23,276 bases of DNA from a virus, in IMG/VR virus record IMGVR_UViG_3300028895_000139, positions 1 through 23,276 of that record; one strand, written 5' to 3'. The notes beneath the pieces were generated by a model, which saw only the letters and a list, made by a program, of their open reading frames with translations, ran no database searches and was not told the origin of the DNA. A program made the translations under genes and the position numbers. Shown piece after piece: positions 16,632 to 23,177 of the stretch (positions are counted from its first letter, which is position 1; every line of letters begins with the position of its first letter).

Positions 16632-16835
16632 ATGATAAACAAATATGATGTAAGACTAAATCTAGAATGTCCATATTGCAGAAAAACTATTTGCTACCTG
16701 TTCCCCTGCAAATTATATGGACCAACCTCCCTTGTATTGATATGCGACATAGAAGAGGGTGGTTGCGATAAAGAGTTTGTAGTCCGCTTACAACATAAAT
16801 ATATTACCAGCACTCACAAAATCGAGGAGACATAA
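16632..16835 (+). CDS. Small zinc-binding protein
   Basis: A 67-residue product with [19 protein letters not shown] followed by [19 protein letters not shown]. CxxC, then C and C at a spacing compatible with a treble-clef or ribbon knuckle, suggest one zinc ion. The stop shares one base with the next ATG (TAATG), so it is coupled to the first pentapeptide-repeat gene. The family is not known to me. Confidence 0.6.
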
Positions 16836-17449
16836 TGACCGAAAAAATAGACGGTCGCGGCTGGAAGTTCTTGAACCAGTACGGGGCGACGGAATACGAA
16901 GGGGTTGAAACCATATATCCCCTGCCAAGACCTGACGAGAAGTGGGGTCCGTGGCTCACACATCCCGAACCTGCTGAACCAGATGGTAAGGATTGCGGTT
17001 CTGGTCGCTGGCATGTGATGAAGAAACTGTCAGCACAATACGCGCCCATTGGTTGGTGGCCGTGGTTCGTCGAATATCGAGGCATCTTTGGCGAGAGCGA
17101 TAAAAAGGTTGGGGTCCGTGAATTGCGGTTGCGCCTTGTACCAAAGCGTGTGTTTTGGCGTGTAATCCGGTTGGGTTGGTGTAAGGGTTCCAACCTATGG
17201 AATGCCGTCCTGTGGAATGCCGACCTGCGGGGTGCCAACCTGCGGGGTGCCAACCTGCGGGATGCCAACCTGCGGTATGCAGACCTGCGGAATGCCAACC
17301 TGCGGGATGCCAACCTGGAGGGTGCTGACCTGCGGTATGCCGACCTGCGGGATGCCGACCTGCGGTATGCCGACCTGGAGGGTGCTGACCTGCGCGGCAT
17401 TATCACAAACGAATACACGAGGATGCCAGAAGATAAGGAGACACAATGA
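16835..17449 (+). CDS. Pentapeptide-repeat protein with conserved N-terminal domain, copy 1
   Basis: The 204-residue protein has an N-terminal domain, residues 1-118, rich in Trp and Pro ([60 protein letters not shown]). Residues 120-188 then form about 14 pentapeptide repeats of A(D/N)LRx type. The DNA repeat unit is 15 bp. Such repeats form a right-handed quadrilateral beta-helix. In Qnr and MfpA this mimics DNA and protects or inhibits gyrase, but most family members have unknown roles. The final residues ([16 protein letters not shown]) are nearly identical to those of copy 2, which begins in the overlapping ATGA. Confidence 0.8.
17192..17398 (+). repeat. 15-bp tandem repeat array encoding pentapeptides, copy 1
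   Basis: About 14 units, typically GACCTGCGG plus a variable pair, then ATGCC. Units differ mainly at the two residues after ADL. Unit length divisible by three keeps several frames open, including antisense ones. Confidence 0.85.
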
Positions 17450-18195
17450 CCGAAAAAATAGATGGTCGCGGCTGGAAGTTCTTGAACCAGTACGGGGCGA
17501 CGGAATACGAAGGGGTTGAAACCATAGATCCCCTGCCAAGACCTGACGAGAAGTGGGGTCCGTGGCTCACACATCCCGAACCTGCTGAACCAGATGGTAA
17601 GGATTGTGGAGCGGGCAGGTGGCACGTCATGAAGAAACTATCCGCGCGATACGCACCTGTCGGTTGGTGGCCGTGGTTTTGTGAGTATCGAGGCATCATT
17701 GGTGAAAGCAAGGAGAAAGTAGGGGTGAGGGAACTCCGCTTGAAACGTGTTAGTAAACGTGTGTTCTGGCGCATTATCCGGCTGGGCTGGTGTTGCGGTG
17801 CCGACCTGCGGTATGCCAACCTGCAGGGTGCCGACCTGCGGAGTGCCAACCTGCAGGGTGCCGACCTGCGGTATGCCGACCTGCGGTATGCCGACCTGCG
17901 GGATGCCGACCTGCGGAGTGCCAACCTGCAGGGTGCCGACCTGCGGTATGCCGACCTGCGGTATGCCGACCTGCGGTATGCCAACCTGCGGTATGCCGAC
18001 CTGCGGAGTGCCAACCTGCAGGGTGCCGACCTGCGGTATGCCGACCTGCGGGATGCCGACCTGCGGGATGCCGACCTGCGGGATGCCGACCTGCGGAGTG
18101 CCGACCTGCGGGATGCCGACCTGCGGGATGCCAACCTGCGGAGCATTATCACAAATAAATACACGAGGATGCCAGAAGATAAGGAGACACAATGA
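17446..18195 (+). CDS. Pentapeptide-repeat protein with conserved N-terminal domain, copy 2
   Basis: A 249-residue paralogue of the preceding gene. The first 160 or so bases differ from copy 1 at only two positions. Similarity then drops sharply to a diverged but homologous region ([28 protein letters not shown]). The pentapeptide part is longer, with about 23 units at residues 120-232, dominated by [20 protein letters not shown]. The C-terminal tag is again nearly identical to copy 1. The proteins may act as a pair or as a size-variant series generated by repeat slippage. The lysin gene starts in its stop (ATGA). Confidence 0.8.
17803..18141 (+). repeat. 15-bp tandem repeat array encoding pentapeptides, copy 2
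   Basis: About 23 near-identical 15-bp units, the longest repeat in the window. Higher-order repetition is visible: blocks [10 protein letters not shown] recur three times, which points to segmental expansion by slippage or unequal recombination. Confidence 0.85.
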
Positions 18196-20224: not shown

Positions 20225-20398
20225 CTAAGCGGTACGTGGTAGAAGCGTATGCTCCCACCCCGCAACGATCCGCAGTACGATGCCGCCTAACCCTGCGGTG
20301 GAGAACTAAAGGAGAGATCCTACTTCAATCTTTGATACCAGAACAAGTGTCCTTCATTGCATGGGAACGGCGGCACCCATGCCCGGAATTATTATGAC
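20225..20398 (+). other. Spacer between E4 and the glycosidase gene
   Basis: No convincing gene is present. It contains CCGC/GCGG inverted pairs near 20281-20296 and a 7-bp perfect inverted repeat, GCATGGG (20359-20365) with CCCATGC (20376-20382). That repeat ends 17 bases before the chosen start of the glycosidase and could affect its translation. The glycosidase lacks an obvious strong ribosome binding site. Confidence 0.4.
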
Positions 20399-21403
20399 AT
20401 GCGAAAATATCTGGTTTTATTTATTCTGGCGGTAATCATGGTCTCTTGTGTACCAACAAAACCACTAGGAATACAGGAGCATAAAATATTCATGCCAATC
20501 GCAATCAAGTCAAGACCCGCGCTGCACCGTGTCGGCGTCCAGTTGGAAGGCGCGACCGATTACAACCAACCGTACCTCATACCAGGATCTACCGTTGAGC
20601 GGCAGGTGTTCTGGTACAAGATTGAAGAAGAGCGCGGAGTTCTAAACTGGCCTTCAAAGCTTGACGCTGACATTCGCGCACTTGAGTCATATCCGTTAGT
20701 GTTGAACATCAAGACTACACCCACCTGGGCGAGGCAGTACGCGGGTTATGTTTGCTCTCCTCCCGCGGAACACTACTACTATGACTACGCAATGTTCGTT
20801 GTCAGCGTGATAGACAGGTATCACCCCAACGCGGTTGAGATATGGAACGAACCCGAGACGCACGCGAGCGGCATTGACCCGAACTCCCCGCTGATGGGAT
20901 GTTGGCCGAACAGGTTGACGTATTTCCAGGCGGGCAAACTGTATGGTGAGTTCGTGGATTATGTCTACAACATCGTACATGCGTACCATCCCAGCGTTTA
21001 CATCATGGCAGGTGCGACACTTCTTGACCCGTTCAGTAAAAAGGCAGAGTTTACCGAGGGGATGTTATCGACCCAACCCAACTATGACGTGTACTCAATT
21101 CACTCATACTTGACATACCCCAAGATGGACTACAAGCAAGTGCTGAGACAACTTGACTTTTTACGCAGGTACGGCGTGGACAAACCTATCTGGATTACAG
21201 AGACCAGTTTACTTTGTGACGGAGACTGCGGCGGCTCATTCGAGAAGGCGCAGGCAGATTACGCGCACTATATATTCAACTTAGACCTGGTTGACCACGT
21301 GCTGTGGTACACGCTTTACGGCAACGGTTGGCGCAACTCCGACCTGGCGTATGCAAGAATGAAGAAGCCCGCGTGGTACGTGTATGAGGAGATGTTGAGA
21401 TGA
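20399..21403 (+). CDS. Secreted lipoprotein glycoside hydrolase (clan GH-A type)
   Basis: The start at 20399 gives a lipoprotein signal (MRKYLVLFILAVIMVSC, candidate lipid Cys17); an earlier in-frame TTG at 20357 would bury it. The 334-residue protein then shows a TIM-barrel glycosidase pattern: VLNIKTTPTWARQYAG, VEIWNEPETHA with the NEP motif (Glu151, general acid/base), and PIWITETSLL (Glu268, probable nucleophile), as in clan GH-A families such as GH39 or GH5. It would hydrolyse a host surface or environmental polysaccharide from the outer membrane face or exterior. A lipoprotein enzyme in a phage is unusual and may be a lysogenic-conversion gene. Family and substrate are not settled. It overlaps the methyltransferase by four bases. 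Confidence 0.75.
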   Translation: MRKYLVLFILAVIMVSCVPTKPLGIQEHKIFMPIAIKSRPALHRVGVQLEGATDYNQPYLIPGSTVERQVFWYKIEEERGVLNWPSKLDADIRALESYPLVLNIKTTPTWARQYAGYVCSPPAEHYYYDYAMFVVSVIDRYHPNAVEIWNEPETHASGIDPNSPLMGCWPNRLTYFQAGKLYGEFVDYVYNIVHAYHPSVYIMAGATLLDPFSKKAEFTEGMLSTQPNYDVYSIHSYLTYPKMDYKQVLRQLDFLRRYGVDKPIWITETSLLCDGDCGGSFEKAQADYAHYIFNLDLVDHVLWYTLYGNGWRNSDLAYARMKKPAWYVYEEMLR

Positions 21404-22515
21404 TGACCTTCGGCTCGCTGTTCGCGGGGATAGGAGGCATTGACCTGGGGCTTGAGCGCGCTGGAATGACGTGCCTGTGGCAGGTCGAACTTGACAACTA
21501 CTGCACAAAAGTATTGGAGAAGCATTGGACGGAGGTTAGGAGGTACAGAGATGTCAGAAAGTGTGGAAAACGGAACCTCGAACCAGTTGATCTTATTGCT
21601 GGAGGATTCCCTTGCCAGCCTCACAGTGTCGCCGGGAAGCGACGAGGCGCAGCAGATGACCGCAATCTCTGGCCAGAATTTATCCGGATTATTAGAGAGG
21701 CAAGACCGCGATACGTCCTTGCCGAGAACGTTCCTGGAATCGTCACCACCTATCTCGACCAGGTGCTATCTGACCTGGAAAGTGAAGGCTACACCTGCTG
21801 GACATTTAATATTCCAGCTTGCGCCTTCGATGCCCCGCACAGACGAGAACGGATCTTCATTGTGGCCGACACCGACAGAACGAGACTACAGGAGCGGAAC
21901 AGGAACAGACCACGGGAATCATTCGCCTCCTCTATCAAGCGAAGTTGGTGGTCAGTTGAACCCGGCGTGGGTAGAAGGTCTGATGGGTTTCCCTCATGGT
22001 TGGAGCGACATATCGGAAAAGGAATGAGTTATGAAGAGAGTAAAAGAGCAACCAAAATATTGCGAGAGTTGTGGCGAGGAAATGGTGCGGAAGCGATACG
22101 GAAAGCGACTGGAGGACTTGACCGCCTTCAAGCAGCGGAGGTTTTGTTCGCTTTCGTGTGCGAACACGCGCCAGACATTGACCAAGCACGGATATTCGTG
22201 GCGTGCCCGGAAGCACTTGAAGACGAAATGCGAGGCGTGCGGCTCATGCTTGGATTTGCAGGCTCATCATATAGACCAGAGGATTCAGAACAATTTAGCA
22301 GAGAACATTCAAACTCTATGCAAACCGTGTCACGATTTTTGGCATTCGACGGGAAGACGAATTGGGAAATATCCAGTTGGGAAGATGGCATCCCTCGTAT
22401 AGCCACAAAAGTTCCCGCTCGGGTGGACCGACTTAGAGGACTAGGCAACGCCGTAGTGCCGCAGGTCGCAGAGTGGGTTGGCAGGAGGATAATTGAACAT
22501 GCCGCCGGTATATAA
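21400..22515 (+). CDS. C5 cytosine DNA methyltransferase (contains nested genes)
   Basis: GAGGAG precedes the ATG. The 371-residue protein carries the C5-methyltransferase motifs in order: I, FGSLFAGIGGIDLG (residues 4-17); IV, GGFPCQPHSVAG with catalytic Cys72; VI, ENV (109-111); VIII, APHRRERIFIVA (145-156); and IX/X, VPARVDRLRGLGNAVVPQVAEWVGRRI (338-364). It would methylate cytosine in a short DNA motif to evade host restriction. The target-recognition region, residues about 160-335, coincides with two other genes read in the +1 frame. Minimal phage enzymes of this type are nearer 250 residues, so about 120 residues look inserted. The inserted part nevertheless remains open in this frame. 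Confidence 0.85.
   Translation: MMTFGSLFAGIGGIDLGLERAGMTCLWQVELDNYCTKVLEKHWTEVRRYRDVRKCGKRNLEPVDLIAGGFPCQPHSVAGKRRGAADDRNLWPEFIRIIREARPRYVLAENVPGIVTTYLDQVLSDLESEGYTCWTFNIPACAFDAPHRRERIFIVADTDRTRLQERNRNRPRESFASSIKRSWWSVEPGVGRRSDGFPSWLERHIGKGMSYEESKRATKILRELWRGNGAEAIRKATGGLDRLQAAEVLFAFVCEHAPDIDQARIFVACPEALEDEMRGVRLMLGFAGSSYRPEDSEQFSREHSNSMQTVSRFLAFDGKTNWEISSWEDGIPRIATKVPARVDRLRGLGNAVVPQVAEWVGRRIIEHAAGI
21551..22027 (+). CDS. Nested methylase-associated phage protein (+1 frame inside the methyltransferase)
   Basis: AGGAGGT at 21538-21544 lies 6 bases before the ATG, a textbook ribosome binding site inside another coding sequence. The 158-residue product has LILLLEDSLASLTVSPGSDEAQQ, then LTWKVKATPAGHLIFQLAPSMPRTDENGSSLWPTPTERDY, and ends with GGQLNPAWVEGLMGFPHGWSDI. 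The LWPTP and LNPxWVExLMGFPxGW blocks mark a family often found beside phage cytosine methylases; its function is unknown to me. An earlier in-frame ATG at 21491 has no ribosome binding site. The overlapping frame encodes motifs IV, VI and VIII of the methyltransferase, so both frames appear constrained. Confidence 0.7.
   Translation: MSESVENGTSNQLILLLEDSLASLTVSPGSDEAQQMTAISGQNLSGLLERQDRDTSLPRTFLESSPPISTRCYLTWKVKATPAGHLIFQLAPSMPRTDENGSSLWPTPTERDYRSGTGTDHGNHSPPLSSEVGGQLNPAWVEGLMGFPHGWSDISEKE
22031..22402 (+). CDS. Nested HNH endonuclease (+1 frame inside the methyltransferase)
   Basis: The 123-residue protein starts 3 bases after the previous stop, with AAAAGGA upstream. It shows CESC (11-14), an FCSLSCANTRQ cysteine pair, CEAC (67-70), the catalytic QAHHID (His79-His80-Asp82), NNLAENIQTLCKPCHDFWH with Asn88 and CxxCH (97-101). 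This is an HNH nuclease with zinc-binding knuckles, which nicks or cuts DNA, either as a homing nuclease or in packaging. It is free-standing but wholly contained in the methyltransferase frame. Insertion of a homing HNH gene whose other frame happened to stay open would explain the long methyltransferase. The alternative is sustained overprinting. Confidence 0.8.
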   Translation: MKRVKEQPKYCESCGEEMVRKRYGKRLEDLTAFKQRRFCSLSCANTRQTLTKHGYSWRARKHLKTKCEACGSCLDLQAHHIDQRIQNNLAENIQTLCKPCHDFWHSTGRRIGKYPVGKMASLV

Positions 22516-22524
22516 TTCAACCTG

Positions 22525-22533
22525 TGGTATAAT
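22525..22533 (+). promoter_or_regulatory. Extended -10 promoter before a leader RNA
   Basis: TGGTATAAT with a perfect TATAAT at 22528-22533. No good -35 box is visible, as is tolerated for extended -10 promoters. The start would be near 22540, just before the folded leader. It repeats the extended -10 found at 116-124. Confidence 0.55.
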
Positions 22534-22540
22534 TGTGGGG

Positions 22541-22637
22541 CTAGGTTGCACGCAGGATTTATGTTTCTGTGCGAATACCCGCTCATCTACCCAGTCCTGT
22601 GTGCCCTAGCAGCTAACAGAAATGGTGGTGAGCGGGT
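22541..22637 (+). ncRNA. Pseudoknot-forming leader RNA of the T5orf172 gene
   Basis: CTAGG (22541-22545) and GCACGCAGGA (22548-22557) pair with TCCTGTGTGC (22595-22604) and CCTAG (22605-22609): 15 pairs with a TT bulge and one G-U. Within the loop, ACCCGCTCA (22577-22585) is perfectly complementary to TGAGCGGGT (22629-22637), which lies 9 bases before the Shine-Dalgarno. Both can form together as an H-type pseudoknot. The arrangement suits a regulatory leader (riboswitch, autoregulatory site or ribozyme). I do not recognise the class. Confidence 0.55.
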
Positions 22638-22647
22638 GTTTGCGTAA
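22561..22647 (+). CDS. Possible 28-residue leader peptide
   Basis: A short frame inside the leader RNA reads MFLCEYPLIYPVLCALAANRNGGERVFA. Its TAA (22645-22647) lies in the Shine-Dalgarno of the next gene, as expected for coupled translation. The upstream AGGA is only 3 bases from the ATG, which is too close for efficient initiation. It may be fortuitous, since the same bases form the stem and pseudoknot arms. Confidence 0.25.
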   Translation: MFLCEYPLIYPVLCALAANRNGGERVFA

Positions 22648-22655
22648 GGAGCGGA

Positions 22656-23177
22656 ATGAAACTCGTAATTAATCATCATATATTAAATAACTACAAAATT
22701 GGTACGTTGAGCGACAGGCTGTGGCGAACATTCGTTGAAATTTGTTTAGTATTTTCTTGGAAAGAAGAGTTGGTTACTTCCGAAGACCTAGCTTTTTATA
22801 CTCATAAGTCGCTAGAAAATATTGAACGCGATGTGGCAGAACTAGAGAAACTTGGATTGCTTGATGATTTCAAGGGTGTAAGACGACGCATTGGATATGT
22901 TTATCTAATCAAAGATTGCGAACGTAATTTATATAAAATTGGAATGACTACTGATATTCGCAAGCGTCTTAATGCTCTGCAATCATCTACGGGAAACTCT
23001 AGTTTAATGTTGATCCATAAAATCCGCTCAAAGAGGTGCTCCGAACTTGAAAAAATTTTACATCAGATGTTTGCTGGCAAGTGTGTATTTGGAGAATGGT
23101 TTCAATTAACTGATGAGGATGTAGATTGGATAAAAAGCATTGAAGAAACCGATTTAATCAATCCGTTCCTGCTTTGA
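22656..23177 (+). CDS. Winged-helix / T5orf172 (GIY-YIG-like) fusion protein
   Basis: The 173-residue protein has AAGGAG 4 bases before the ATG. Residues 1-72 are helical with a winged-helix look (SDRLWRTFVEICLVFSWKEELVTSEDLAFYTHKSLENIERDVAELEKLGLLDD). Similar segments start phage replication-initiation proteins. The C-terminal half is a T5orf172/Mug113 domain: IGYVYLIKDCERNLYKIGMTTDIRKRLNALQSSTG, then HQMFAGKCVFGEWFQLTDEDVDWIKS. That fold relates to GIY-YIG nucleases. DNA binding by the N-terminus and cleavage or nicking by the C-terminus is inferred. The next gene shares the N-terminal theme, which suggests exchange between replication genes. Confidence 0.75.
   Translation: MKLVINHHILNNYKIGTLSDRLWRTFVEICLVFSWKEELVTSEDLAFYTHKSLENIERDVAELEKLGLLDDFKGVRRRIGYVYLIKDCERNLYKIGMTTDIRKRLNALQSSTGNSSLMLIHKIRSKRCSELEKILHQMFAGKCVFGEWFQLTDEDVDWIKSIEETDLINPFLL

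Follow-up and report, generated by a model that had tools for sequence, protein, structure and literature searches.

Organization of the methyltransferase locus

The stretch of DNA analysed here, referred to as the window, is a 23,276-base virus record, and all coordinates are window positions unless a locus is named. On its plus strand, positions 21400-22515 hold a 371-codon C5 cytosine methyltransferase ORF, alpha, which matches PF00145 over residues 2-164 in a profile search (5.7e-49) and contains motifs I-VIII and X. The sequence segments that we take to be motifs I (LFAGIGGIDLGLERAG, 21418-21465), IV (GFPCQP, 21604-21621) and X (RVDRLRGLGNAVVPQ, 22420-22464) are all in the alpha frame on the plus strand. 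A second plus-strand ORF, beta, occupies the +1 frame (21551-22027; 158 codons, ATG at 21551, TGA at 22025-22027), so that motif IV is dual-coding with beta while motif I lies outside the overlap. An AGGAGGT ribosome-binding site (21538-21544, plus strand) stands 6 nt before the beta ATG, and beta matches PHROG 1008, labelled DNA methyltransferase, at 1.1e-26. A third ORF, for an HNH endonuclease (22031-22402, plus strand; PHROG 1271, 1.9e-9), is also in the +1 frame and has its ATG 3 nt after the beta stop. A first-pass annotation of this DNA had described two genes nested at +1 within the methyltransferase gene; its coordinates hold, including AGGAGGT at 21538, and 849 bases of the window are read in two frames. 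The same methyltransferase gene is found in a 29.3-kb IMG/VR contig (L001), and L001, L052, L089 and the window represent one and the same gene.

Nearby ORFs were also noted. The ORF at 20357-21403, which extends into the beginning of alpha, starts in a signal-like way and weakly matches a glycosyl hydrolase core (PF11790, 3e-5). Directly 3′ of the methyltransferase gene, at 22656-23177, is a T5orf172/MUG113 (GIY-YIG-like) ORF (PF13455, 4.3e-15; PF10544, 1.7e-11). Two adjacent ORFs of 204 and 249 codons at 16835-18195 have near-identical N-termini and pentapeptide-like repeats (ADLRYADL...), and are probably a tandem duplication.

The AlphaFold model of alpha is confident at residues 1-160 and about 341-371, motif X included, and matches M.HhaI with Z 25.4 and 2.4 A over 197 residues. 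Residues 162-339 (21883-22416, plus strand), where alpha reads through the beta recognition region and the HNH gene, mostly have pLDDT <50 and are predicted to be mostly disordered, and the core as modelled has no recognition domain. Beta is less tractable. The window beta had no match in Pfam, NCBIfam, PADLOC or PDB sequences, and was not assigned to a known family on this basis, and a search of 61 beta relatives against Pfam gave just 13 families, each matching one relative. The model of beta alone is weak (pTM 0.26; best Foldseek E 0.8), although a hairpin at residues 73-93 and a helix at 138-145 are more confident than the rest, and we draw nothing from it; neither structure nor profile searches linked beta to the C5 small domain.

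The first-pass annotation had also stated that alpha keeps all motifs from I to X in one frame. This does not hold for motif IX, whose pattern was not found in the window alpha frame and which sits in the nested ORF. The beta C-terminus, LNPxWVEWLMGFPxGWTDL (LNPxWVExLMGFPxGW in the wider form that includes HNH-bearing loci), resembles what we take to be the C5 motif IX consensus, and in the window the motif-IX-like segment LNPAWVEGLMGFPHGW lies at 21956-22003 (plus strand) in the beta frame. The motif was thus assigned to beta by resemblance and by its absence from alpha. Among 163 distinct methyltransferase ORFs, canonical motif IX was in frame in one (L120), which lacks a full beta, while motif X was in frame in 106; the remaining 57, in which the motif X pattern is not in frame, count against a two-chain reading, with the proviso that they include permuted and truncated loci. 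In three related enzymes (L021:2883-3743, L027:859-1794 and L197:2496-3482) motif IX shares the frame of motifs I-VIII and motif X is in another, the third frame. Two further loci were noted. In L045:1740-3791 motif IV is interrupted in frame, between PC and Q, by ~350 residues whose end reads HN and which resemble an intein. In L087:2414-3202 an HNH-like segment follows motifs I-III in frame, and a stop codon comes immediately ahead of motif IV.

Recurrence of the double reading and selection on each frame

Viral loci were gathered by separate queries with beta (50), alpha (37) and HNH (30). Together with a few phage records they gave 113 distinct methyltransferase ORFs, of which 110 have beta at +1, and the arrangement reported by the first-pass annotation is thus conserved in relatives. 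Relatives with one broken frame are exceptions: L085 and L087 are broken, and in L105 the frames have changed. Yet the frames are permuted in 20 of the 33 HNH-bearing loci, so alpha is not always one I-to-X frame. A scan of bacterial genomes with a pattern from the beta C-terminus gave 331 loci. The best 80 of these, chosen for their similarity to betas that overlap a methyltransferase, hold 72 distinct methyltransferase ORFs; each of the 80 has beta in the +1 frame of its methyltransferase, and the overlaps are 337-1355 bases long. Two-frame loci occur in phages and in contigs titled Bacillota, Pseudomonadota, Bacteroidetes, Acidobacteria, Spirochaetes and others. Annotators have noticed single cases (Lily g63, 'g62 internal gene'; K1ind1 ORF28, 'Mte8-like'), and an account of beta as a conserved overlapping ORF was absent from the open-licence literature searched. 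By pattern, betas contain zero to seven WPTP-like modules. Of 179 module clusters, 22 are common to more than one locus, near-identical loci included; some common modules, such as those of one cluster found in L018, L024 and L042, stand at different places in the array.

The double reading exceeds chance, as had been proposed. For the beta frame, stops were counted against synonymous shuffles in 34 distinct loci from the methyltransferase query, after ORFs without a full domain had been dropped (one each from L062, L082, L085 and L087) and identical sequences collapsed. The +1 frame contains 2 stops over motifs IV-VIII vs 59.5 expected, with zero in 33 of the 34 loci. Over motifs I-III of these genes its count is 74 vs 83.2 expected, and that of the +2 frame over motifs IV-VIII is 180 vs 171.6. 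A shuffle test of regions A and B was not relied on, since their zero stops follow from how the regions were defined. Across HNH, none of 32 loci has a stop in the methyltransferase frame, where 146.1 are expected in total (P<0.05 in 31 of the 32), and the third frame has 147 vs 131.5. Codon choice in HNH is in line with this: where the next two bases are AA, AG or GA, no codon ends in T (0 of 1037 codons), vs 22.6% of 2521 codons elsewhere. Ribosome-binding sites before beta starts have a mean best match of 4.8 bases vs 3.7 in the third frame as a control.

Suppression of synonymous change is present in both overlaps tested, with the general limit that the pairs behind the fourfold-site, codon-position and motif IX comparisons are not independent. 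At 45-65% protein identity, fourfold sites of alpha differ by 0.39-0.48 over motifs IV-VIII vs ~0.73 in motifs I-III; close pairs (75-95% identity) are only weakly suppressed (0.37 vs 0.46, lower in 58%), a point against the two-chain reading. HNH fourfold sites are somewhat suppressed, at 0.35-0.63 vs 0.53-0.72 in the 5′ part of the methyltransferase gene. In 109 distinct loci, differences before the beta start fall mainly at alpha position 3 (54-80%), and those in the recognition region mainly at alpha position 1, equivalent to beta position 3 (49-53%). The motif IX block likewise varies mainly at beta position 3, both in 44 HNH-free loci (0.49) and in 61 genome loci (0.50). For HNH, the figures from the 109 loci mix two frame arrangements; recounted by HNH codon position, differences there fall mainly at HNH position 3 (45-55% in three divergence bins). 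From these codon-position differences, alpha is the main frame up to motif VIII, beta is the main frame in the recognition region, and HNH is the main frame in its own stretch. Both overlaps are therefore under selection, in different ways: over motifs IV-VIII both the alpha and beta frames matter, whereas in the recognition region and HNH the main demand on the other frame is freedom from stops.

The nested HNH gene

All 30 loci retrieved with the HNH query carry it in an alternate frame of an open methylase. The nested HNH is missing from 76 of the 109 distinct beta-bearing viral and phage loci, and among the 80 kept genome loci (best 80 of 331) it was found in L175 alone. When the HNH-free alleles L054, L060, L078 and L056 were aligned to the window, they showed no interruption at the HNH site: alpha EPxVGR..GVPxRVDRL is there read together with beta LNPTWVEWLMGFPxGWTDLED. 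In the window the beta end differs and is followed by HNH and then, in the same frame, by FPLGWTDLED and a stop (22412-22444, plus strand), an old beta end that lies outside the present beta. The first-pass annotation had suggested insertion of the HNH gene into the target-recognition part with the host frame retained. Insertion with the host frame open is supported; the site is instead in the codons for motif IX, after the recognition region and ahead of motif X. The break is set beside WVE/WLMG because five loci (L090, L099, L111, L113 and L115) keep WLMG in the copy downstream of HNH.

The old copy was recognized in 26 of the 33 HNH-bearing loci by a loose pattern, and it is also the +1 reading of alpha VPxRVDRL, so that variation by frame is the better test. 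In 26 HNH-bearing loci, variation in the post-HNH copy is greatest at beta position 2, equivalent to alpha position 3 (0.49 vs 0.12 and 0.39); constraint from beta is gone and that from alpha is kept, as insertion predicts. Among loci that fit the pattern around WVE, these three residues are followed by W in 29 of 36 without HNH vs 1 of 30 with it, the latter otherwise having K, G, L, A or S in its place. Such a replacement would be expected if the insert carried a version of the site spared by its own nuclease, although the change from W to K, G, L or A, like the old copy itself, can come partly from shared descent and alpha-frame constraint. Given the empty-site alleles, the separated old copy and the changed target residue, the HNH looks like a homing-type invader.

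The frames around the insert are arranged in two ways. In 13 of the 33 HNH-bearing loci alpha runs through HNH to motif X, as in the window. In the other 20 the N-terminal part of alpha stops before motif X and the beta frame continues through HNH to it, an arrangement that, judged by sequence, would be an AquI-like split. Seven of the 13 window-type loci (the window, L048, L053, L077, L107, L109 and L119) have the HNH ATG 3 nt beyond the beta stop, and the other six have it elsewhere; the 3-nt spacing suggests coupled translation. A known self-splicing intron seems unlikely, as positions 21300-22700 had no Rfam match at E up to 1 and the inserted stretch (~420-435 nt) barely exceeds the 372-nt HNH ORF. 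In L077:3495-3821 this site holds a different HNH and the W that follows WVE is retained, which may reflect a separate invasion. In Staphylococcus phage CUB-EPI_14 (L120:2483-2974) an HNH lies at +1 in a canonical one-chain C5 methyltransferase with motif IX in frame.

A candidate two-polypeptide enzyme, rival readings and known systems

We consider it likely, with a probability of roughly 0.8, that the locus encodes a C5 methyltransferase made of two polypeptides, alpha and beta, and that a homing-type HNH gene later entered it at the codons for motif IX. Besides the points already named, this reading is weakened by the missing structural or profile link between beta and the C5 small domain, by the 20 HNH-bearing loci whose alpha ends ahead of motif X, and by the six window-type loci that lack the 3-nt spacing. 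Alpha would be the catalytic large domain, with motifs I-VIII, a mostly disordered read-through segment and motif X, and would bind AdoMet and carry out the chemistry, while beta would read the target. Starting from its own ribosome-binding site inside alpha, beta would supply target recognition and motif IX. The first-pass annotation had called beta a methylase-associated protein; because motif IX sits in the nested ORF, beta is more likely the second half of the enzyme. The HNH gene would then have inserted into an HNH-free alpha/beta pair, its 5′ end bringing a replacement beta C-terminus and stop to which translation of HNH is probably coupled, with the alpha frame staying open through HNH to motif X. 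The sequences themselves show a conserved double reading, constraint specific to each frame, the placing of the motifs, alleles without the HNH and an old beta end set apart from beta; from these we infer that the chains assemble and methylate DNA, and that the HNH protein is a nuclease capable of homing.

One alternative is ribosomal frameshifting, in which a single chain would enter the beta frame after motif VIII and return before motif X, so that beta would not be separate. The beta-frame recognition region and motif IX do stand in sequence order between motifs VIII and X, and frame-permuted loci exist. However, the ribosome would have to shift twice, beta possesses a start and ribosome-binding site of its own in the window and in many relatives, and constraint on the beta frame extends over motifs IV-VIII, for which a late shift gives no reason; we regard this alternative as improbable. 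Somewhat less probable again is that beta is a separate protein with another job, such as an inhibitor or a DNA-binding partner, that overlaps alpha by happenstance. While the lack of any fold or family match leaves room for such a role, all of the kept genome betas overlap a methyltransferase (having been kept by similarity to overlapping betas), motif IX is missing from alpha, and the modelled alpha core is without a recognition domain.

The HNH part alone has also been read differently: the first-pass annotation saw a compact restriction-modification-like unit, in which the HNH would be the cognate nuclease of the methyltransferase. Beyond its being encoded within the methyltransferase gene, nothing points there. 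Most beta-bearing loci are without a nested HNH, there is one insertion site with HNH-free alleles, and similar HNH elements occur in a methylase of unrelated type (L120) and, in the text available of the report concerned, in actinophage methylases (PMC11855218), so that we hold this role to be very unlikely and the homing-type origin the better description. Finally, that the extra frames are untranslated shadows of conserved methyltransferase residues and codon bias is already contradicted: the +1 frame of the canonical L120 methyltransferase gives a weak beta-like match (114 codons, 5.5e-16), so part of the beta similarity over motifs IV-VI is shadow, and alpha GRVAxGVPxRVDRL read at +1 gives beta motif IX, but stop depletion is confined to the overlap, the beta frame is dominant in the recognition region and at motif IX, and the HNH frame is dominant over HNH.

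The two-frame finding is more general than what the first-pass annotation claimed. With a slight lean in its favour, we propose a class of C5 methyltransferases, in phages and many bacterial phyla, in which catalysis is encoded in one frame and target recognition in an overlapping one. Recognition cassettes in this class would shuffle as DNA modules open in both frames, and HNH homing genes would insert at the motif IX codons, sometimes permuting an EcoHK31I-like split into an AquI-like one. Long same-strand overlaps in prokaryotes are easily mistaken for annotation errors; here the overlap recurs, with measurable selection on each frame. Should beta be the recognition half, numerous DNA cytosine methyltransferase records lack it in their annotation, and their specificity can be neither predicted nor expressed from one ORF. 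The module arrays offer a clean system for asking how DNA changes specificity while serving two proteins, and also how a homing gene invades without destroying either of them.

In EcoHK31I, the small methyltransferase gene is nested in the large one in another frame. The large chain of M.EcoHK31I has motifs I-VIII and X and the small chain motif IX, with the predicted TRD placed in the large chain, according to the text available for that enzyme (PMC3404938). It is by analogy a precedent for a motif IX that stands apart from I-VIII and X. As in M.EcoHK31I, the window alpha holds motifs I-VIII and X, with motif IX placed in beta by motif pattern; unlike there, as far as the available description goes, the main frame of the small chain contains the recognition region, which is built of modules, and the locus also includes a nested HNH gene. 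The same source describes M.AquI as a two-subunit C5 methyltransferase whose second chain carries both motif IX and motif X (PMC3404938). The window is not of this type, but the 20 frame-permuted loci are like it in joining motifs IX and X, and differ from it, as there described, in that the joined motifs come with an HNH read through in another frame.

An out-of-frame HNH in phage methylases was already published in 2025: the ShiLan domain, in an actinophage DNA methylase, with a second case in Pacc40 (PMC11855218). In the available text, the ShiLan HNH is in the third frame and has a GTG start without a detectable ribosome-binding site, splicing was not apparent, and the words 'subunit' and 'EcoHK31I' and any mention of a second methylase chain are absent (PMC11855218). 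So far as this text allows comparison, both systems have an alternate-frame HNH, no stops in the methylase frame and HNH-free relatives, and the HNH half of our finding is a further case of the ShiLan kind; here, unlike in ShiLan, the HNH is at +1, its ATG lies 3 nt after the beta stop, and the host gene was already two-framed. A further parallel, on the available account, is mobE in nrdA of phage Aeh1, an HNH homing gene in a critical part of an enzyme that works from separate chains, for which coupled translation was suggested (PMC2988022). On that account, both HNH genes lie within a part of an enzyme gene that is critical to its function, but nrdA is split in two, whereas the window alpha frame continues through HNH.
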